A stretch of DNA of 50,573 bases from Phycisphaerae bacterium. Lineage in GTDB: Bacteria > Planctomycetota > Phycisphaerae > Phycisphaerales > SM1A02. Where the stretch lies: the NCBI GenBank assembly GCA_002709295.1, contig PAQL01000036.1, positions 1 to 50,573 of the forward strand, read 5' to 3'. Under the pieces are notes generated by a model that was not told where the DNA came from, made no database searches, and saw nothing but the letters and a program-made list of their open reading frames with translations. Position numbers and translations under genes: made by a program. Below, piece by piece: positions 17,153 through 25,112 of the stretch. Positions within the stretch are counted from its first letter, which is position 1; each line of letters begins with the position of its first letter.

Positions 17153-19759
17153 TCAGCCCGCCCGACCCGTGGCCAGCAGGGCTCGCGGTGGTCTTCGGAG
17201 CAGGGACAGCGAGGCGGGGATGGAGGCGAGGAGGGCGGACACCACGACCACCACCGCTCCGATCGAGGTCGCGAGGATCGGGATGGTGAGGGCGAGGTCG
17301 ATGCCGGCGAGATCCTCGTACATCAGGACCCCGATCCAGGCCAGATGCACGCCGAGCGCGGTCCCGGTGATCGCGGCGGCGATCCCGGTGATCGTGATTT
17401 CAGCCAGCACGAGTCGTGGAGCGGTGCCGGGACTGCCGCCGACCGCTCGAAGCACGCCGAACTCGTAGCCGCGAGCCGTGATGCCGGCCGCCACCACGTT
17501 CCCCACGCCGAGGCATGCGAGAAGCAGGGCTGCGCTGGCGATCGTGGTGGTGACCGCGAGGATGCGTCCGCCGATCTCGTCGACGAGGGACTTGATGCTC
17601 CGTCCACTCGCGAAGATCGCGCCGGGGACCTCCTCCCGGACGATCTCGGTGATGGCGGCTTCGGCGGCATCCGCCTCCGTGGGATCCTCCGGAAGTTCGA
17701 GATCGAGCTGCATGATGAAGGCCTCGCGGGTCCCGAATCGTTCCGCGACGACGTCGAAGTCCATGAAGACGCAGCTCACCGCATGGTCGAGATAGATGCT
17801 TCGTATCCCGAAGATGCCGGTCGCCATGTCGAGGCCGGCGGCACCCACCACGCCGACGATCTCGAAGGGATGCTCGTCCCCCTCGGCCCCCAGACGGATG
17901 ATGTCGCCGACTCCGAGCCCTCGGGCGATCAGGAACTCGCTGGCGACCAGGACCGCATCGCCCTCCGAGAGCCGGGGGATGGCGACCTCCGGCGAACCCT
18001 CGATCCAGTCGACGCGATTGAAGGACAGGAACTCGTCCGGGATGAAACCGACGCAGACCACGTTCGGGGGGGCGAACTCCCCGGTGCCGAGTCGATCCTC
18101 CTCCGCGACCCGCAGGGGCAGGTAGCCGACCGGGCTCGCGGCCACCACGCCGGGGATCGTCTTGAGAAAGGCCTGTTCCTCCTCGCCGAGGCCGCCGGTC
18201 TTCATCACGAAGCCGTCCGCGAACCGGACGCGTTCACGGAAGTCGTCGACGAGTGCGAGTCCGTTGCTCCAGGTGGAGACGAGGACCGAGAGTCCGACCA
18301 TGAGGGCGCCCGCGGTCAGTCCGAGCCGGATGACCCCGTCGTGAAGATTGCCGCGGACCAGGGTGACGGGCAGACGGAAGCATGCCGCGACCGGACGTGC
18401 GAGCACCGGGACCAGCAGGGCGAAGACCGGAACCGCGAGTAGGAAGTACGCGATGTGCACGGCGGGGAGCCCCACGAATCCGTAGACGAGGAATCGAATC
18501 TCCGAGTCGGGGATGGCGAGCAGGCAGATCTGCAGACCGGCGAGCATCGCGCCGATGCCGGCCATCACGAGGATCGTGGATCGTCTCGGAGCCTTCGCCC
18601 GGTTCGCCAGCGCCTCCAGCGGCGTGGTGCTCGCCGCCCGCCAGGCGGGCCAGGCCGCACCCAGAAGTCCGGCCGCCACCGATCCGAAGACCGAGAGGAG
18701 CACCCCTTCCAGCGGCACGGAGAGACCTCCGGGCAGCAGATCGGCGTACCACCAGCGCAGAATCGCCGCGAGGCCGATGCCGATCGGGGCTCCGAGGAGA
18801 CCGCCGATCCCGCCGATGAGCAGTCCGACCATGGCCTGCGAACTCGCGAGCTGGCCCCGCGAGGCGCCCACGCAGCGAAGCATGGCGAGTTGGCGGACCT
18901 GTTCCCCGATGGCGGTGGTCATGCCGATCGCGACGATGAAAGCGCAGGCCAGGAACGAGACCATCACGCCGACTCTGAAGCCGACCCTCGAGGCTCGTAC
19001 CTGCCGGTCGTAGCCGGCGCGGGCCCGTTCCGCGGCCTCCAGCAGGAGCGGCGTGGAGATGCGTTCCTTGTTCGCCTCGACCCAGGCCGGGACATCGACG
19101 CCCTCGTCCAGGATGATCGAGATCAGGCTGGCCCGTCCCTCTCGACCGATCGCCTCCTCGATGATCGAGGTGTCGACCATGACCTTGGGTTTCTGGAGGG
19201 CTCCGAGGATCGGTCGGTCGCGGATGCCGACGATCTCCAGTTCGATCGGGGGACCGAATCGTTCCACCCGGAGGCGATCACCGACCCCGACCTCAAGGGA
19301 ATCCCCGGTGAGCGGGTCGATGAGAATCTCCTCCGGGCCGGTCGGAGCACGCCCTTCGAGGATGTCGTACTGCGAGAACGCCTCGTTGCGGGCGGTGTCC
19401 ACGCCCCGGGCCTGGGCGGTGATCCGGAGACGACGCCCGTCCCTGTCGCGACGGTCGTCCAGCCGGGCGAGGGTCAGGGCGCCTTCGGTTCGCGGGGCCG
19501 CCTCGTCGACGTCGGGCCAGGAGCGGACCTCCTCCGCGAGCCCGGCGTCGAAGGGGGAGCCGTAGCGGTGGATGATTCTCGCGTCCACGTTGCCGATCGA
19601 CCGCGTGATCCGGTACTCGACCGTCGCCTGGACGGTCCTGACTCCGGTGGAGACGGCCGTGACCAGAGCGGCTGCGAGGGTCACCGCCACCACCAGGAGA
19701 ATGGTTCGCGTCCTACGTCCCGAGAGGGCGTGTCGCGCGATGTGCCAGCCTGGCCGCAT
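17153..19759 (-). CDS. FtsX/LolC-type ABC transporter permease, double-domain
   Basis: 868 residues. An N-terminal helix (RTRTILLVVAVTLAAALVTAVS) is followed by a large MacB-like periplasmic domain, a first FtsX helical block near residues 260-400 (GVMVSFLACAFIVAIGMTTAIG, QLAMLRCVGASRGQL), further helices, a second periplasmic domain and a second FtsX block at the C-terminus (ACLGVGNVVAAGI, EFGVLRAVGGSPG). LRAVGAS-like loops appear twice, the mark of FtsX permeases. It should pair with the ATPase gene that overlaps its start by 47 bp, forming a type VII mechanotransmission system that moves lipoproteins, lipids or a small molecule across the envelope; the substrate is unknown. Confidence 0.88.
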   Translation of the reverse strand: MRPGWHIARHALSGRRTRTILLVVAVTLAAALVTAVSTGVRTVQATVEYRITRSIGNVDARIIHRYGSPFDAGLAEEVRSWPDVDEAAPRTEGALTLARLDDRRDRDGRRLRITAQARGVDTARNEAFSQYDILEGRAPTGPEEILIDPLTGDSLEVGVGDRLRVERFGPPIELEIVGIRDRPILGALQKPKVMVDTSIIEEAIGREGRASLISIILDEGVDVPAWVEANKERISTPLLLEAAERARAGYDRQVRASRVGFRVGVMVSFLACAFIVAIGMTTAIGEQVRQLAMLRCVGASRGQLASSQAMVGLLIGGIGGLLGAPIGIGLAAILRWWYADLLPGGLSVPLEGVLLSVFGSVAAGLLGAAWPAWRAASTTPLEALANRAKAPRRSTILVMAGIGAMLAGLQICLLAIPDSEIRFLVYGFVGLPAVHIAYFLLAVPVFALLVPVLARPVAACFRLPVTLVRGNLHDGVIRLGLTAGALMVGLSVLVSTWSNGLALVDDFRERVRFADGFVMKTGGLGEEEQAFLKTIPGVVAASPVGYLPLRVAEEDRLGTGEFAPPNVVCVGFIPDEFLSFNRVDWIEGSPEVAIPRLSEGDAVLVASEFLIARGLGVGDIIRLGAEGDEHPFEIVGVVGAAGLDMATGIFGIRSIYLDHAVSCVFMDFDVVAERFGTREAFIMQLDLELPEDPTEADAAEAAITEIVREEVPGAIFASGRSIKSLVDEIGGRILAVTTTIASAALLLACLGVGNVVAAGITARGYEFGVLRAVGGSPGTAPRLVLAEITITGIAAAITGTALGVHLAWIGVLMYEDLAGIDLALTIPILATSIGAVVVVVSALLASIPASLSLLRRPPRALLATGRAG

Positions 19760-20552
19760 CGAGACCCTCCGTGTCGAACTCGTCGGCCACCTTTCCGTCC
19801 CTCAGGATGAACAGTCGGCGACAGTGGGCGGCCGCCGCAGGCTCGTGGGTGACCATGAGCACGAGCACCTTCCGTTCGTTCGACAGTTCCTCGAGGAGTC
19901 GCCACAGGCGGTCGCTGGCGGCGCTGTCGAGGGCACCGGTCGGCTCGTCGGCGAGGACCACGGGAGGCTCGAAGAGCAGGGCCCGGGCGATCGCCACCCG
20001 CTGTTGTTCGCCACCGCTGAGCGCGTCGGGACGATGATGCATCCGCTCGCCGACGCCGAGATCCTCCAGCAGGGATCTCGCCCGGTCCTCGAGGGACTCC
20101 GATTCCGCGCCATCGAGGACGCCGGGGAGGAGGACGTTCTCGAGCGCGGTCATCGATGCCAGAAGATTGAACTGCTGGAAGATGATGCCGATGCCGTGGC
20201 GTCGGAACATGGTCAGGGCCGATTCGTCCATCCGATCGACCCGGGATCCACCCACGACGATCTCGCCGGAATCGGGGCGATCCAGGCCGCCGAGGAGATG
20301 CAGAAGCGTCGACTTGCCGCTCCCACTGGGCCCCATCACCCCGACCAGGCCGGGTTCGTGGATCTCGAGATCGAGATCACGGACCGCCTGAACGGATCTC
20401 GATCCGATCCGGTACGACTTGTTCGCCTTCCGGACGCTGATGCCGCGGAAGGTCGAGGTCGATCCGGGTTCGGAGTCGTTCGATTGAGTATGCAATGAAC
20501 TCACGGAATCGCAGTTCGTCGAATCGGGGCTTCGGATGCGAGCCTCGGTCAA
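19713..20552 (-). CDS. LolD/MacB-type ABC transporter ATP-binding protein
   Basis: 279 residues if translation starts at TTG 20552, whose bases overlap the gcvH stop (TTGA). Seen: Walker A GPSGSGKST (74-82), Q-loop FQQFNLLASMTALENVLLPG, signature LSGGEQQRVAIARAL, Walker B VVLADEPTGALD, and the H-loop VTHEP. These match LolD-type ATPases. The first 35 residues are Ser/Asp-rich and not conserved, so a downstream GTG near residue 17 is an alternative start. Its last 47 bp also encode the N-terminus of the permease in another frame. Confidence 0.9.
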   Translation of the reverse strand: MTEARIRSPDSTNCDSVSSLHTQSNDSEPGSTSTFRGISVRKANKSYRIGSRSVQAVRDLDLEIHEPGLVGVMGPSGSGKSTLLHLLGGLDRPDSGEIVVGGSRVDRMDESALTMFRRHGIGIIFQQFNLLASMTALENVLLPGVLDGAESESLEDRARSLLEDLGVGERMHHRPDALSGGEQQRVAIARALLFEPPVVLADEPTGALDSAASDRLWRLLEELSNERKVLVLMVTHEPAAAAHCRRLFILRDGKVADEFDTEGLDAARLAHRATRPLGT

Positions 20553-20926
20553 CCGTTCATCTGGTCGTAGGCGGCGGCCTCCATCAGGCCGTCGATGGGC
20601 CCGAGGTCCGAGGACTTGATCCTGACCAGCCAGCCTTCGCCGTAGGGGTCGCTGTTGACGAGCGAGGGATCATCCACGACCGCCTGGTTGGCCTCGTCGA
20701 CGTCACCGCCGATCACCGTGTAGACGTCACTGGTGGTCTTCACGGATTCGACCTCGCCCGCGGAATCGCCGGGGGAGAGGGTGGTGCCCGCGGACTTCAT
20801 CTCCACGTAGGTGATGTCCGTCAACGCCTCCGTGGCGTGGGAGGTGATCCCGATGGTGACCATGTCACCATCCACCTTGAACCACTCGTGCGACTCGGAG
20901 TAGCGACGATCTGCAGGGCTGGACAT
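20549..20926 (-). CDS. gcvH: Glycine cleavage system H protein
   Basis: 125 residues, the normal size. GcvH carries the lipoyl arm that shuttles the aminomethyl intermediate between the P and T proteins and the L protein. The lipoylated lysine is Lys63 in GEVESVKTTSDV. Other blocks are YSESHEWFKVDGD, VTIGITSHATEALTDI, the conserved PYGEGWLVRIK and the C-terminal LMEAAAYDQM. No gcvT or gcvP is in the window. It is instead coupled by TTGA to an ABC exporter gene, an unexpected partner. Confidence 0.96.
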   Translation of the reverse strand: MSSPADRRYSESHEWFKVDGDMVTIGITSHATEALTDITYVEMKSAGTTLSPGDSAGEVESVKTTSDVYTVIGGDVDEANQAVVDDPSLVNSDPYGEGWLVRIKSSDLGPIDGLMEAAAYDQMNG

Positions 20927-20961
20927 GGGGGGGTTCCGTCGAGGGGGGGAAGTGGGCGAGG

Positions 20962-20992
20962 ATCATACATCGGGCATCTGGAACCTCACCAA
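20962..20992 (-). promoter_or_regulatory. Candidate promoter of gcvH
   Basis: Minus-strand TATGAT (20967-20962) matches five of six -10 bases. TTGGTG (20992-20987) lies 19 bases upstream, slightly long for a -35. The leader would be about 30 bases. No glycine riboswitch could be recognised in so short a leader. Confidence 0.4.
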
Positions 20993-21076
20993 TCCGTTGT
21001 GCGAATGGTGGATCGGGGCGGGTGATGGATGACCCGGGGCGAATGCCCCATTCCCCCGTTCAAGTGGCTCTAAGCA

Positions 21077-21105
21077 TTGTAAAGCGATCGTTTGCGGGCT
21101 ATAGT
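21077..21105 (+). promoter_or_regulatory. Strong sigma-70-like promoter
   Basis: TTGTAA (21077-21082), a 17-base spacer, then TATAGT (21100-21105). This is the best promoter in the window and sits in an AT-rich island. The predicted start, six to seven bases on, is the G at 21112, exactly where the first hairpin of the candidate RNA begins. Confidence 0.65.
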
Positions 21106-21111
21106 TCGGTT

Positions 21112-21186
21112 GGCCGAAAGGCCCTTCACTTTGATCTTTCTCCCCTCCGGAATGCACCTTCCCTCACAGGTTGGTGCATTCTTTTT
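21112..21186 (+). ncRNA. Candidate 75-nt regulatory small RNA
   Basis: Between the promoter and the terminator lies a short transcript with three parts. First, a 5' hairpin GGCC-GAAA-GGCC (21112-21123) with a GNRA tetraloop. Second, an unpaired pyrimidine-rich stretch containing CTCCCCTCC (21140-21148), complementary to Shine-Dalgarno sequences. Third, an 8-bp terminator hairpin whose loop again carries TTCCCTC. This is the layout of C-rich trans-acting small RNAs in other bacteria. No ORF of note fits inside. The alternative is a terminated leader (attenuator) of the gene at 21450, but that gene has its own -10 candidate. Confidence 0.55.
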
Positions 21187-21187
21187 C
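21151..21187 (+). terminator. Intrinsic terminator of the candidate small RNA
   Basis: AATGCACC (21151-21158) pairs perfectly with GGTGCATT (21173-21180) around a 14-base loop and is followed at once by CTTTTTC. Textbook rho-independent form, and rare in this GC-rich window. Confidence 0.7.
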
Positions 21188-21220
21188 ACTGCCATTCCGA
21201 GACCCTCAGGGAGATCCTCG

Positions 21221-21241
21221 AACCCCGGAATCACCGGGGTT
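21221..21241. repeat. Perfect 8-bp inverted repeat
   Basis: AACCCCGG and CCGGGGTT surround a five-base spacer. There is no T-run after it on either strand, so it is not an obvious terminator. It could be an operator or RNA hairpin between the small-RNA locus and the next gene. Confidence 0.4.
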
Positions 21242-21396
21242 GACACCCTGCCGATGGCCCCCGCCAGCACCTTGTGACTCTGGGGGAGGCCTTCCTTTGA
21301 GTGCGGCATGGAGGGTCGGACGCCTGTTCAACGAACCCACCCGGGATCCGGAAAGCCTCTTCAGAGGTCCTGCGGGAGGAATCTGCCGGCCTGCCG

Positions 21397-21402
21397 TACA
21401 CT
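21397..21402 (+). promoter_or_regulatory. Candidate -10 element for the 21450-25112 operon
   Basis: TACACT, the hexamer also found before gpsA, the P-type ATPase gene and the dockerin-type gene. It would give a leader of about 40 bases before the TTG start at 21450. Confidence 0.3.
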
Positions 21403-21449
21403 CCGGCCCCGGACGGCACACCGTCGTTCCTGCATCGGAGACAGTTCCC

Positions 21450-22337
21450 TTGGCCCAGCAGCAGTTGCTCGTGACGGCATCCACCGCTCCGTTTCTTGAC
21501 CGAATCGAGTCCTCGGACGACCCGCTCGCCCTGGAGGACATGCCCGGTTTCGGGGCCGGGGAGCTCGGGGTCAGGGGCCTCTCGATACCCACATCGATGC
21601 TGGCTGGAGCCTCCGCCTCGACCCTGGAGGCCCTCCGGGACGCCGGGGACAAGGCCCGGTGTCCCATGCTGCTTCTGGTCGAGGACCAGCCGCTCGATCT
21701 TGCCAATCCGGATGCGAAGATCCGGGCCGCTTCGATCGAGCGGATCGGACGTCTCTCCAAGGCCGCAGGCATCCTGGGTTGTGCCCAGCTGGGGATCTCC
21801 ATCGAGGGTCAGGAGGACAGCGAGGAATCCTTCGAACTCACCGCCAGCACGATTCGTGATGCGATGCAGCGGATCGACCGGTTCGAGGTCAGCCTTCTGA
21901 TCCGGAGCGGTTCGGGGGTCACTGCCGATGCCGATCGGCTCACCGAACTCATCAAGAAGATCGGGGGGTTCCGGATCGGATCCCTTCCCGACTTCCGTCT
22001 TGCTCACGACACCGGCGACTTCGCCGGAGTCCTCCGCCGACTGGCTCCCTATGCCGGCACGATCCTCGCCACCGTCGGAAAGGCCGGCCCCGACGGCAAG
22101 CAGAACGCCGGGAGGACCGACCCCACTCCATACGGGCTCGAGGAGGGACTGGCCTCGGTGCTCGCCGTCGGATACCAGCATGCGATCTGCCTCGATCATG
22201 TCGGTGGCCCCAACGCGGCGAAGTCGATCATCGAGGCTCGAAGTCGGATCGAATCCGCGCTGGCTCCCGAGGTCCCCGAGGATGTGGCGGGGGAGGAGAC
22301 CGCGCAGGATGGCGAGGGCACCGGGGGGGGCGAATGA
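21450..22337 (+). CDS. TIM-barrel protein of the xylose-isomerase/sugar-phosphate epimerase superfamily
   Basis: 295 residues from TTG 21450, with GGAG nine bases upstream; a longer frame upstream is low-complexity and crosses the promoter region. The alternating strand-helix pattern suggests a TIM barrel: GVRGLSIPTSML, CPMLLLVEDQPLDLA, GCAQLGISIEG, RFEVSLLIRSGSG, GFRIGSLPDFRLAHD, TILATVGKAG, HAICLDHVGG. The LPDFRLAHD strand end resembles the metal-site region of AP-endonuclease-2-like enzymes. Activity unknown. The C-terminus is an acidic tail. Its stop overlaps the start of cmk (ATGA). Confidence 0.6.
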   Translation: MAQQQLLVTASTAPFLDRIESSDDPLALEDMPGFGAGELGVRGLSIPTSMLAGASASTLEALRDAGDKARCPMLLLVEDQPLDLANPDAKIRAASIERIGRLSKAAGILGCAQLGISIEGQEDSEESFELTASTIRDAMQRIDRFEVSLLIRSGSGVTADADRLTELIKKIGGFRIGSLPDFRLAHDTGDFAGVLRRLAPYAGTILATVGKAGPDGKQNAGRTDPTPYGLEEGLASVLAVGYQHAICLDHVGGPNAAKSIIEARSRIESALAPEVPEDVAGEETAQDGEGTGGGE

Positions 22338-23122
22338 ACCTCGCGGACGGCCGAACCGATCCATCGAGCGGTTCGAACCGCCCGTCTTCCGGTGATTCCG
22401 ACGGGACCGGGGATCGACTGGTGGTCACCATCGACGGTCCGGCGGGGACCGGAAAGTCCTCGGTCGCTCGCACCGTCGGGTCGCGCCTCGGCCTGTTCGT
22501 TCTCGACACCGGAGCGATGTATCGAGCCGTCGCCTGGCTGGCCGGCCGCGATGCCATCGACCCCGCGGACGAGAAGCGGCTGCTGGCCGCGATGGACGAG
22601 CATCCCGTGGTCTCGCAGCCCGACGGCGATCGAACGGTCGTCGAGGTCGGCGGCGTCGATCCGGGCGATTCGCTGCGCCGCCCGGATGTGGAGTCGATCG
22701 TGTCGATCGTCGCGGCGCTTCCGGGAGTGCGTGATCGCCTCGTCGATGCCCAGCGGGATTTCGCGAGAAGGCATCCCCGACTGGTCACCGAGGGGCGAGA
22801 CCAGGGTTCGGTGGTGTTTCCCGACGCGAGCGCGCGGTTCTTCCTCACCGCCTCGCCCGAGGTCCGGGCGCGTCGAAGAGCTGAACAGATCGTGGAGAAG
22901 GACGGCGGCAGTCCCGATGTCGGAGAGATCCTGCGCGGGATCGAGGTTCGGGATCGCCTTGACGCCACCCGTTCGGAGGGACCTCTGATCAAGCCGGAGG
23001 GCGCGATCGAGATCGACACGGACTCGCTCGATCTGGAGATGGTGGTGGAACGGATCGTCTCCATCGTCCGTGACTCGATGCCCGGAGGAAAGAGCGACCA
23101 TTCGGAGGGGACGGGGTGCTGA
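22334..23122 (+). CDS. cmk: Cytidylate kinase
   Basis: 262 residues. Cmk phosphorylates CMP and dCMP. P-loop GPAGTGKSS at 35-43, then LDTGAMYRAVAWLA (nucleotide-binding), the VSIVAALPGVRDRLVDAQRDFA helix, VTEGRDQGSVVFPDA (the GRDIGTVVFP block with Gln for Ile) and FFLTASPEVRARRRAEQ (lid arginines). A conserved DSLDLEMVVERI segment ends the domain. An extra 28-residue Ser/Asp-rich N-terminus precedes the usual start; an internal start is possible but none has a better ribosome site. Overlaps neighbours on both sides. Confidence 0.93.
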   Translation: MNLADGRTDPSSGSNRPSSGDSDGTGDRLVVTIDGPAGTGKSSVARTVGSRLGLFVLDTGAMYRAVAWLAGRDAIDPADEKRLLAAMDEHPVVSQPDGDRTVVEVGGVDPGDSLRRPDVESIVSIVAALPGVRDRLVDAQRDFARRHPRLVTEGRDQGSVVFPDASARFFLTASPEVRARRRAEQIVEKDGGSPDVGEILRGIEVRDRLDATRSEGPLIKPEGAIEIDTDSLDLEMVVERIVSIVRDSMPGGKSDHSEGTGC

Positions 23123-23886
23123 GCGGCTGGTTCCAGGCCTCCCGCAGGGCTCCGGGACGTTCGCGTCTCGCCGTGCTGTGGTGGGACGGGTGGCGATTCC
23201 TCATGGAGACGGTGGTCTCGCTGGCCTTCGGGCTGAGGATCACGGGTCGGGAGTTCATCCCCCGTACCGGCCCGGTTCTCTACCTCTCGAACCATCAGTC
23301 GTTCCTCGATCCGATTCTCAGCGCCTCGGTCGCACGGGACCGCCCGTTCCGACCATTCGCACGTGAGACGCTCTTCCGTCCCCCGCTCGGATGGCTGCTG
23401 AGTTCGCTCGGAGGCATGCCGGTGTCCGGCACCGGCAGCGACAAGTCCGTGATGCGATCCGCCCTCACCGAGCTGGCGGAGGGCCGCTGCGTCCTGATCT
23501 ACCCGGAGGGCAGTCGGACGCCCGATGGAGCCATGCATCCCTTCAAGTCCGGGATCGGACTGCTGCTGCGTCGCTCCGATGCCATCATCGTTCCGGTCGG
23601 CATGGACGGGTCGTTCGACGCGTGGCCCCGCCAGCGTTCGATCCCCTGCTGGAGAAGAGCGATCGAACTCGAGGTGGGGGAGCCCATCGATCGGGAGGAG
23701 CTGCTTTCCGACGGCATGCCTGCCGCTCTTCTGAAGCTCGAGGAACGCGTGGACGAACTTCGACTCCGCTGCCGGCATCGCCTCCGGGAGCGATTCGGTC
23801 CCGACTATCCCCCTCCGGGTCCCGGTGATGGCAGGACCCCGGTGCGGACCGAGACGGGCGAGGACCCCGGGGCGAACGTCGAATGA
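23116..23886 (+). CDS. plsC: 1-acyl-sn-glycerol-3-phosphate acyltransferase family protein
   Basis: 256 residues from GTG 23116, 7 bp inside the end of cmk, with CGGAGGGGA just upstream. PlsC makes phosphatidic acid from lysophosphatidic acid at the inner membrane. Motif I is SNHQSFLDP with His60 and Asp65; motif III is YPEGSRT; motif IV is IIVPVGMDGS. A hydrophobic patch near residues 30-40 may associate with the membrane. The cmk-plsC pair is a common bacterial arrangement. The last 40 residues are a Pro/Gly/Asp-rich tail. Confidence 0.9.
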   Translation: MLSGWFQASRRAPGRSRLAVLWWDGWRFLMETVVSLAFGLRITGREFIPRTGPVLYLSNHQSFLDPILSASVARDRPFRPFARETLFRPPLGWLLSSLGGMPVSGTGSDKSVMRSALTELAEGRCVLIYPEGSRTPDGAMHPFKSGIGLLLRRSDAIIVPVGMDGSFDAWPRQRSIPCWRRAIELEVGEPIDREELLSDGMPAALLKLEERVDELRLRCRHRLRERFGPDYPPPGPGDGRTPVRTETGEDPGANVE

Positions 23887-25112
23887 CGGATTCCCGACGG
23901 ATGCTGCCACCCGGGGACGCGGCCATGCATGTCGCGAAGGTCCTTCTCGAGTCCGGGCACGAGACCTACTTCGCCGGAGGCTGTGTCCGTGACCGGCTTC
24001 TCGGGCTGGAACCCACCGACCACGACATCGCCACGAGCGCCCGGCCGGAGACCGTCGCCTCGCTGTTTCCCCACGCCAGGGGGGTCGGGGCGCATTTCGG
24101 TGTGATGCTCGTTCCTTCCGGTGGTCACATGATCGAGGTCGCGACCTTCCGATCCGATGGTGCCTACGAGGATGGAAGGAGGCCCAGCGAGGTCTCGTTC
24201 GGTTCCGCCGAGGCGGATGCCCAGCGACGCGACTTCACGATCAACGGGCTCTTCGAACATCCCGGGACCGGCGAGGTGATCGATTTCGTGGGAGGACGCG
24301 ACGACCTCGATGCCGGCGTGCTTCGGGCGATCGGGGTCCCCGAGGATCGCATCGAGGAGGATCGCCTGAGGATGCTGCGGGCGGTGCGTTTCAGCGCCCG
24401 ATTCTCGCTCGAGATCGATCCGTCGACCCGCGAAGCGATCATCGCCCGATCGGATCGGCTCGGCGGGGTCAGTCGGGAGCGGGTCGGTCACGAGCTTCGT
24501 CGCATGCTCGGGCATCCCACGCGGGCGATCGCGGCCGCGATGGCGGAATCGCTGCGCCTCGACGTCTCGATTCTCGGGACCGGTCGGGTGGAAGGTGGCC
24601 TGAAGCGGCTCGAACTTCTCGATGATCAGGCGGACTGGATCGACGCCCTCACCGCCTGGGAACTCGACCGGGGAACGGCCGAGGCTGCAGGATCGCCCGC
24701 CAGGCTCACCGAGGCGCTCATCCTGTCCAACCGGGAACTGGTGGATCTCGAGGCTCTGCTCGGGATACGACAGGCCATCCTCGGACGATGGACGGAGTCG
24801 AGTCTGGCGCATCGAAAACGGCTGGCCGGGCGGCCCCAGTTTGCGAGATCACTGGCGATCGCCACAGTCGATGAGTCGGAGCTCTGCGAGCGCGTGGAGG
24901 CCGAATTCCATGGTTTCAGGGCGGAAGGGCTCTCTCCGCAACCACTTATCGGAGGTGACGATCTCCTGGATGCCGGACTGCAGGCGGGACCTCGATTCAA
25001 GGCCATCCTCGATGCCACCTACGACGCCCAGTTGGAGGGGCGGGTTCAGGATCGAGCTTCGGCCCTCGAGCACGCCCTTGGTCTGGCGGGCGAATCCGGG
25101 CCGGGGGAATGA
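23883..25112 (+). CDS. CCA tRNA nucleotidyltransferase / poly(A) polymerase family
   Basis: 409 residues, overlapping plsC by ATGA. Class II nucleotidyltransferase: AGGCVRDRLLG at 31-41, the metal-binding pair in TDHDIATSA (Asp46, Asp48), then RRDFTINGLF, VIDFVGGRDDLDAGVLRAIG and EDRLRMLRAVRFSARF, followed by RVGHELRRML. These are the conserved head and neck motifs of CCA-adding enzymes and poly(A) polymerases. The C-terminal half is weakly conserved and ends with a segment like GDDLLDAGLQAGPRFKAIL. Sequence cannot separate CCA addition from poly(A) or A-adding activity, though the encoded tRNA-Ser here lacks CCA, so the organism needs such an enzyme. Confidence 0.9.
   Translation: MTDSRRMLPPGDAAMHVAKVLLESGHETYFAGGCVRDRLLGLEPTDHDIATSARPETVASLFPHARGVGAHFGVMLVPSGGHMIEVATFRSDGAYEDGRRPSEVSFGSAEADAQRRDFTINGLFEHPGTGEVIDFVGGRDDLDAGVLRAIGVPEDRIEEDRLRMLRAVRFSARFSLEIDPSTREAIIARSDRLGGVSRERVGHELRRMLGHPTRAIAAAMAESLRLDVSILGTGRVEGGLKRLELLDDQADWIDALTAWELDRGTAEAAGSPARLTEALILSNRELVDLEALLGIRQAILGRWTESSLAHRKRLAGRPQFARSLAIATVDESELCERVEAEFHGFRAEGLSPQPLIGGDDLLDAGLQAGPRFKAILDATYDAQLEGRVQDRASALEHALGLAGESGPGE

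Follow-up and report, generated by a model that had tools for sequence, protein, structure and literature searches.

The C-rich anti-Shine-Dalgarno sRNAs RoxS and RsaE of Firmicutes have an unpaired C-rich seed that is able to pair with Shine-Dalgarno sites. In cyanobacteria, Yfr1 is described as an RNA of 54–69 nt with two stem-loops, a conserved genomic place and an unpaired central stretch of 16–20 nt that contains an ultraconserved 11-mer; the 5' stem has 6–10 bp, and the neighbors are mostly guaB and trxA (PMC2190773). The Yfr1 motif is also reported at other loci, in the Yfr10 family (PMC6778093).

Here we analyze a locus within a 50,573-nucleotide stretch of DNA (hereinafter the window) from a Phycisphaerae bacterium of the order Phycisphaerales (contig PAQL01000036.1), for which a preliminary description, made from the sequence, proposed a compact small-RNA gene. 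Comparison with related genomes indicates that this locus belongs to a widespread sRNA family, undescribed as far as searched, of a known functional kind. Among the open-licence papers listed, judged by titles and the beginnings of abstracts, no published sRNAs of Phycisphaerae were found, and neither these records nor passages of PMC9029176 and PMC2864571 contain a description of the core string discussed below or of a planctomycete sRNA of this kind.

Organization of the locus and comparison with Yfr1

The locus occupies the spacer between the divergent gcvH and TIM-barrel genes and consists of the following features.

20549..20926, minus strand: gcvH, glycine cleavage H protein (PF01597, E 1.7e-38), one edge of the divergent spacer
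21077..21105, plus strand: sigma-70-like promoter TTGTAA-17-TATAGT (TTGTAA 21077-21082, 17-nt spacer, TATAGT 21100-21105)
21112..21187, plus strand: predicted type A sRNA of about 75 nt (fold and match to model R1)
21112..21123, plus strand: 5' hairpin GGCC-GAAA-GGCC (sequence and fold)
21136..21148, plus strand: core CTTTCTCCCCTCC (as RNA CUUUCUCCCCUCC), nearly invariant, predicted to be single-stranded, a putative anti-Shine-Dalgarno seed (conservation, predicted exposure); the C-rich string CTCCCCTCC lies inside it
21149..21182, plus strand: intrinsic terminator stem-loop (sequence, fold, covariation in relatives), the outermost pair being a G-U wobble
21150-21158 and 21173-21181: terminator arms GAATGCACC and GGTGCATTC, 9 perfect pairs
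21182..21187, plus strand: U-tract TTTTTC, 3' of the terminator stem
21450..22337, plus strand: TIM-barrel protein, weakly AP_endonuc_2 (PF01261, 28.7 bits, below the cut-off of 31.1), the other edge of the spacer; the start codon of these coordinates is provisional
22334..23122, plus strand: cmk, cytidylate kinase (PF02224, E 5.6e-59)

The promoter-like hexamers, the hairpin at the predicted start and the C-rich string are all present where the preliminary description placed them, and the terminator has the perfect stem and T-tract reported there, with a stem of 9 bp rather than 8 bp. A simple terminator scan missed this terminator, we think probably because the scan was limited to loops of 3–8. 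The hexamer pair is the sole one in 18000-25000 (shuffle mean 0.4) and by itself is not beyond chance; it is the conservation in relatives that places the window element beyond chance. Model R1 matches the window copy at G000:C36:21133-21187 (E 5.1e-17), a match that is not independent given that this copy is one of the 22 sequences used to build the model.

The stretch 21112-21187 is predicted to fold with -26.7 kcal/mol (z -4.3; equaled by 0 of 200 shuffles) into outer hairpins of 4 and 10 bp that flank 25 unpaired nucleotides. When folding begins at 21112, the core has a mean unpaired probability of 0.95, in agreement with the earlier suggestion that the C-rich stretch is unpaired. This prediction depends on the start site, because with a start 5 nt farther upstream the core is paired in the predicted fold. 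Among 27 type A transcripts (non-redundant loci with a promoter score of at least 6), the mean predicted core exposure is 0.77, compared to 0.73 with shuffled leaders, and it is higher in 20 of the 27; the modeled gain is small, and in one type A locus (L083) the predicted exposure is only 0.10.

The resemblance to Yfr1 (PMC2190773) extends to size (54–69 nt vs. about 75 nt), a near-invariant pyrimidine-rich motif that is unpaired between two stem-loops, a terminator with a U-tail as the 3' hairpin, a conserved location and little similarity beyond the motif. The differences are as follows: the core is CUUUCUCCCCUCC here and ACUCCUCACAC in Yfr1; there are 25 unpaired nucleotides and a 5' stem of 4 bp here, compared to 16–20 nt and 6–10 bp; and the host is a planctomycete, with gcvH and TIM-barrel/cmk as neighbors, instead of a cyanobacterium with guaB/trxA. 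Allowing up to 1 mismatch, a scan of the window for the Yfr1 motif gave 0 matches, so that Yfr1 itself was rejected. With the core, the phylum and the neighbors all different and the Yfr1 motif absent, the likeness is one of analogy: the window family is an analog of Yfr1/Yfr10, not a member. In the Yfr10 family (PMC6778093), a further sRNA repeats the core exactly at a different locus and has little else conserved, much as type B stands beside type A (see below); the differences are the core sequence and the lineage.

RoxS and RsaE come from a different phylum, and beyond the Rfam scan the comparison with them is one of general description. The Rfam search suggested in the preliminary description yielded no family. 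No Rfam 15 family reaches its gathering score at the site, and a known Rfam RNA was therefore rejected; the two sub-threshold matches have 11.8 and 10.6 bits, compared to cut-offs of 37.8 and 50.

Conservation of the core in two paralogous forms

To assess conservation of the C-rich core, as the preliminary description had advised, spacers were chosen through gcvH matches alone, so that the core itself played no part in the selection, oriented by gcvH and scanned on both strands toward the TIM gene, or over 450 nt where that gene was out of reach (1 of 28 loci in f1, the family of the window, and 5 of 29 in family f2). gcvH was matched in 28 of 30 f1 genomes and 29 of 30 f2 genomes (two f1 genomes and one f2 genome were unmatched). 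The exact 13-nt core is found in 17 of the 28 f1 spacers and a copy with one mismatch in another (18/28 at ≤1 mismatch), whereas the best match in the other 10 has 4–6 mismatches, i.e., no core. In f2, 7 of 29 spacers contain the exact core, 3 a copy with one mismatch (10/29 at ≤1) and 2 a copy with two mismatches, and all twelve continue into another hairpin, mostly GGACGG..CCGTC. Shuffled cores reach 0–1 mismatch in 1/560 cases in f1 spacers and 3/580 in f2 spacers. Accordingly, the sRNA gene is either present or absent in f1, and its occurrence in f2 is patchy.

Other searches point in the same direction. A DNA search of 61 genomes produced a match at E ≤ 1 in 45, with query positions 74-93 as the recurrent stretch. 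The exact core is present in 19 of 20 fetched R2 hits and in 8 of 20 fetched R1 hits, 7 more of the latter having one mismatch, counts that serve as support only because the models themselves favor the core. Upstream of the core, identity falls to 25–28%, the chance level, in the non-redundant type A and B subsets; the core identity of 98–100% from the same comparison is circular, the loci having been picked by a 12-nt core pattern, and only the upstream values are used here. The 20 R1 hits were fetched by score, and 16 of them, including L263, which coincides with L083 of the synteny set below, sit in the gcvH/TIM spacer. Among the four without this context, L258 and L269 are probably false. 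The other two, L251 and L252 (G440 and G445, family f6), carry the variant core CTTTCTCCTCCTACGG, followed by a terminator like that of type A, at another locus without gcvH/TIM and may represent a further paralog. In L265 (G662), the place and the terminator are kept and the core is degenerate.

Across Phycisphaerales, the core recurs in two paralogous forms, each with an intrinsic terminator immediately 3' of it. Type A, to which the window copy belongs, continues from the core into GGAAAACGTCGG or a variant of it, which in the window reads GGAATGCACC, and then into a terminator that ends with TTTC or a similar string, whereas type B consists of CATCTTTCTCCCCTCC followed by GCCCCGTTG..CAACGGGGTTTT; the two terminators differ in sequence, and both lie directly 3' of the same core. 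A tally of non-redundant core loci comprises 120 that were assigned to class A or B and in which a terminator was recognized, class B in this tally also containing L033, L050, L066 and the viral L185. The terminator stems of both forms covary. In type A, both partners have changed in 6 of 13 pairs, and 98.6% of cells are paired; in type B, the same holds for 5 of 8 pairs, with 97.0% of cells paired. Slid controls reach at most 57.0% (A) and 57.7% (B). Extra core-like sites are seen in G026, G051 and G055 (e.g., G026:C19:13161, G051:C2:17308 and G055:C6:3276), hinting at more than two paralogs.

The two forms appear to differ upstream of the core. Promoter, leader-fold and upstream-identity tests were performed on non-redundant subsets of 40 type A and 98 type B loci. 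The best sigma-70 score at -65 to -25 of the core is 7.2 +/- 0.6 (s.e.m.) in the 40 type A loci, compared to 4.0 and 2.8 in two upstream control windows, although 9 of the 40 score below 4.0, including the inverted L073 and L121. Type B has no sigma-70 signal in its 98 loci (3.8 vs. 3.8 and 2.9 upstream). Likewise, type A leaders fold better than shuffles (mean z -1.24 vs. -0.26 and 0.01 in the upstream windows), with a hairpin after the predicted start in most of the 40 loci and a sequence that differs between loci, whereas the type B signal is weaker (z -0.78). These differences suggest that forms A and B may be controlled differently. The hexamer GTCCGA is found upstream of type B in 20 of 98 loci vs. 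1 of 98 (e.g., L120, L133 and L141); it is the best of many 6-mers, so that its enrichment is only suggestive, and is perhaps a box of another sigma factor.

Distribution among planctomycetes

Type B is detected (model R2, E ≤ 1e-8) in 146 of the 301 genomes of the order, as counted from tables, and in all six sampled families, with only two genomes in f2. In the 117 f1 genomes, B is found in 85 and A (model R1, E ≤ 1e-8) in 35, with both in 27, A only in 8 and neither in 24; R1 and R2 were trained partly on the genomes counted here, and one of the 35 type A genomes is G662 with its degenerate core. By these models, the genome of the window (G000) has type A only, the single R2 match being the window locus itself. 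Retention in close relatives was the test by which the preliminary description proposed to judge the gene, and the gene survives it: it is found in the congener G002. Another congener, G001, has neither an sRNA nor a gcvH match, and the locus may be missing from that assembly.

Outside the order, evidence of the family is scarce. The exact 15-mer occurs in 11 of 31 genomes inside the order and in 8 of 361 genomes of the phylum outside it (reversed control 0/392), and in none of these 8 genomes is it followed by a strong terminator. Two occurrences inside the order that are without a strong terminator, L064 and L065, are probably due to chance. With R2 at E ≤ 1e-4 on 199 genomes of the phylum, there is 1 match among the 190 outside the order (G131), and it lacks the core. 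Among the matches listed, with at least 80 records containing the core, most are labelled Phycisphaerales or other planctomycetes and 14 are labelled as non-planctomycete; two of the latter, L082 and L144, do carry the terminator and may be misbinned contigs.

Two further observations concern the limits of the distribution. In genus g26, the models detect neither A nor B in 7 of 7 genomes of the order sample (G027, G519, G587, G622, G635, G640 and G644), which makes it a candidate for lineage-specific loss; in G027, gcvH and TIM are separated by a spacer of just 98 nt. Furthermore, one of six viral matches, on contig IMGVR_UViG_3300023199_000016 (L185, 1688-1741), has ATCTTTCTCCCCTCCG, then a GC-rich hairpin and a brief run of T; the site directly follows a stop codon and precedes the next start codon. 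It may be a copy or mimic of the sRNA core in a phage, or it may be due to chance.

Independence from neighboring genes, proposed mode of action and alternatives

Synteny was assessed with tblastn, using the proteins of the window and of two relatives, for 32 type A loci. The order gcvH(-) / sRNA(+) / TIM(+) is found in 28. In L073 and L121 of genus g29 it is reversed, such that the sRNA points at gcvH; in L018 of the same genus, gcvH is downstream of the sRNA and the other flank is out of view; L092 has TIM only. A further inversion within the gcvH/TIM spacer is found in G028 (L257 = L420), and the usual orientation in G589 of the same genus; inversion within the otherwise kept spacer seems to have occurred more than once. 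Type B adjoins several kinds of genes in both orientations (e.g., L103 vs. L093). The TIM-barrel gene, for which there is only a sub-threshold Pfam match, precedes cmk in most type A loci as it does in the window.

No flanking gene reads into the divergent spacer, and the terminator is therefore best explained as ending a transcript born inside it. Like trans-acting anti-Shine-Dalgarno sRNAs, the window locus has, by computational prediction, its own promoter and intrinsic terminator. Given the core-blind conservation, the covariation, the promoter signal, the divergent intergenic setting and the inversions, the free-standing gene proposed in the preliminary description holds up well, and on this sequence evidence we are nearly certain that the locus is a real, independent sRNA gene. 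Comparison of sequences supports the gene, the core, the terminator, the promoter and 5' hairpin of type A, the independence from neighboring genes and the lack of detectable Hfq.

We infer transcription, its exact start, the pairing, the targets and the direction of regulation along the following lines. A sigma-70-type promoter of its own would drive an RNA of about 75 nt that its own intrinsic terminator would end; the 5' hairpin and the terminator hairpin would hold the pyrimidine core CUUUCUCCCCUCC exposed between them; part of the core would pair in trans, without Hfq, with G-rich Shine-Dalgarno regions of several mRNAs and thereby block ribosome binding; and types A and B would form a two-paralog set with one common seed. 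Complementary to the core is GGAGGGGAGAAAG, which has the form of a Shine-Dalgarno site with its spacer; GGAGGGGAGAAAG-ATG is in turn exactly complementary to CATCTTTCTCCCCTCC, the form that type B usually takes. Hfq, the presence of which in the genome is expected for Hfq-dependent sRNAs, was sought with PF17209 and detected in 0 of 61 genomes, compared to 5 of 14 control genomes. The combination of this complementarity with undetected Hfq makes Hfq-free pairing with several mRNAs the most likely mode. We consider Shine-Dalgarno pairing, judged from sequence, somewhat more probable than all other modes taken together, and are fairly confident of the entire reading, namely a free-standing trans-acting sRNA of about 75 nt with Hfq-independent pairing and an A/B set.

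Masking of Shine-Dalgarno sites by a C-rich trans-acting RNA, as initially proposed, is thus the mechanism that we find most plausible, but no target was seen to recur. The full complement of the core has 70 sites in G000 at up to 2 mismatches (29 of which were inspected), compared to 69 for the reversed control, i.e., no enrichment. The pattern GAGGGGAGA-N1-8-ATG has a match in 55 of 61 genomes, many of the matches being the sRNA genes themselves, and among 40 of the listed sites no recurring gene family was seen by eye. Candidate targets in G000 include L331 and L333, which from the look of the sequences we take to be a FecCD-like permease and an HDOD-like protein, respectively.

The missing recurrent target would also fit a reading in which the core is a protein-binding site and the sRNA binds or titrates a pyrimidine-preferring single-strand RNA-binding protein, without pairing with mRNA. 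The core is a pure pyrimidine tract, its near-invariance is compatible with a protein ligand, and the Yfr1 description raises the same alternative for the 11-nt motif (PMC2190773). Against it stand a complement that amounts to a Shine-Dalgarno site plus spacer, with the start codon added in most type B copies, and the mRNA pairing reported for Yfr1 and Yfr10, whose motif is comparable (PMC6778093); we regard this explanation as unlikely, albeit the least unlikely of those considered here. PMC6778093 also provides, in Yfr1/Yfr2, a precedent for an sRNA that acts mainly with a partner sRNA bearing a complementary G-rich motif. We find such a partnership improbable in the present case: the only exact full complement in G000 is the other strand of the gene itself, and three sites, inspected in their immediate context, have 1 mismatch.

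Two explanations dispense with a trans-acting RNA altogether. The main alternative in the preliminary description, in which the element would be an attenuator, a terminated 5' leader belonging to the TIM-barrel/cmk operon that follows it, would fit the 28 of 32 type A loci that point toward the TIM gene, with the matched coding sequence starting a few hundred bases downstream. It fails on the copies located on the opposite strand of the same spacer (L073, L121, G028 and, as far as visible, L018) and on the paralogs elsewhere, since type B places this core next to other genes and in either orientation; we consider it very improbable and rejected it. Alternatively, the conserved string could serve a small protein encoded on the opposite strand as its ribosome-binding site, given that the type B core, read in reverse complement, forms a perfect ribosome-binding site plus start codon (GGAGGGGAGAAAG-ATG). 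However, the 12 peptides looked at, out of 78, appear unrelated, frames of 50 codons or more are near the control level (28/78 vs. 75/280 control frames), the ATG is missing at that position in most type A and most f6 copies read, and the upstream sequence is at chance identity; this minus-strand frame, to which we assign hardly any probability, was rejected as well.

For the Shine-Dalgarno-pairing sRNA that we favor, a 13-nt core that is kept while the upstream sequence drifts to chance identity, in genomes where Hfq is undetected, parallels Yfr1/Yfr10. We tentatively put forward, as a possibility that we rate below even, that Phycisphaerales, apparently without Hfq, independently reached the cyanobacterial solution: a widespread A/B pair built on a single ultraconserved anti-Shine-Dalgarno core of 13 nt, which in A is kept open by flanking hairpins, with a different promoter, 5' structure and locus for each form, as a global translation-control hub. 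Because type B spans all six sampled families, one probe and one model would annotate the regulator in many genomes, and the family makes it testable whether bacteria without Hfq converge on exposed-seed sRNAs.
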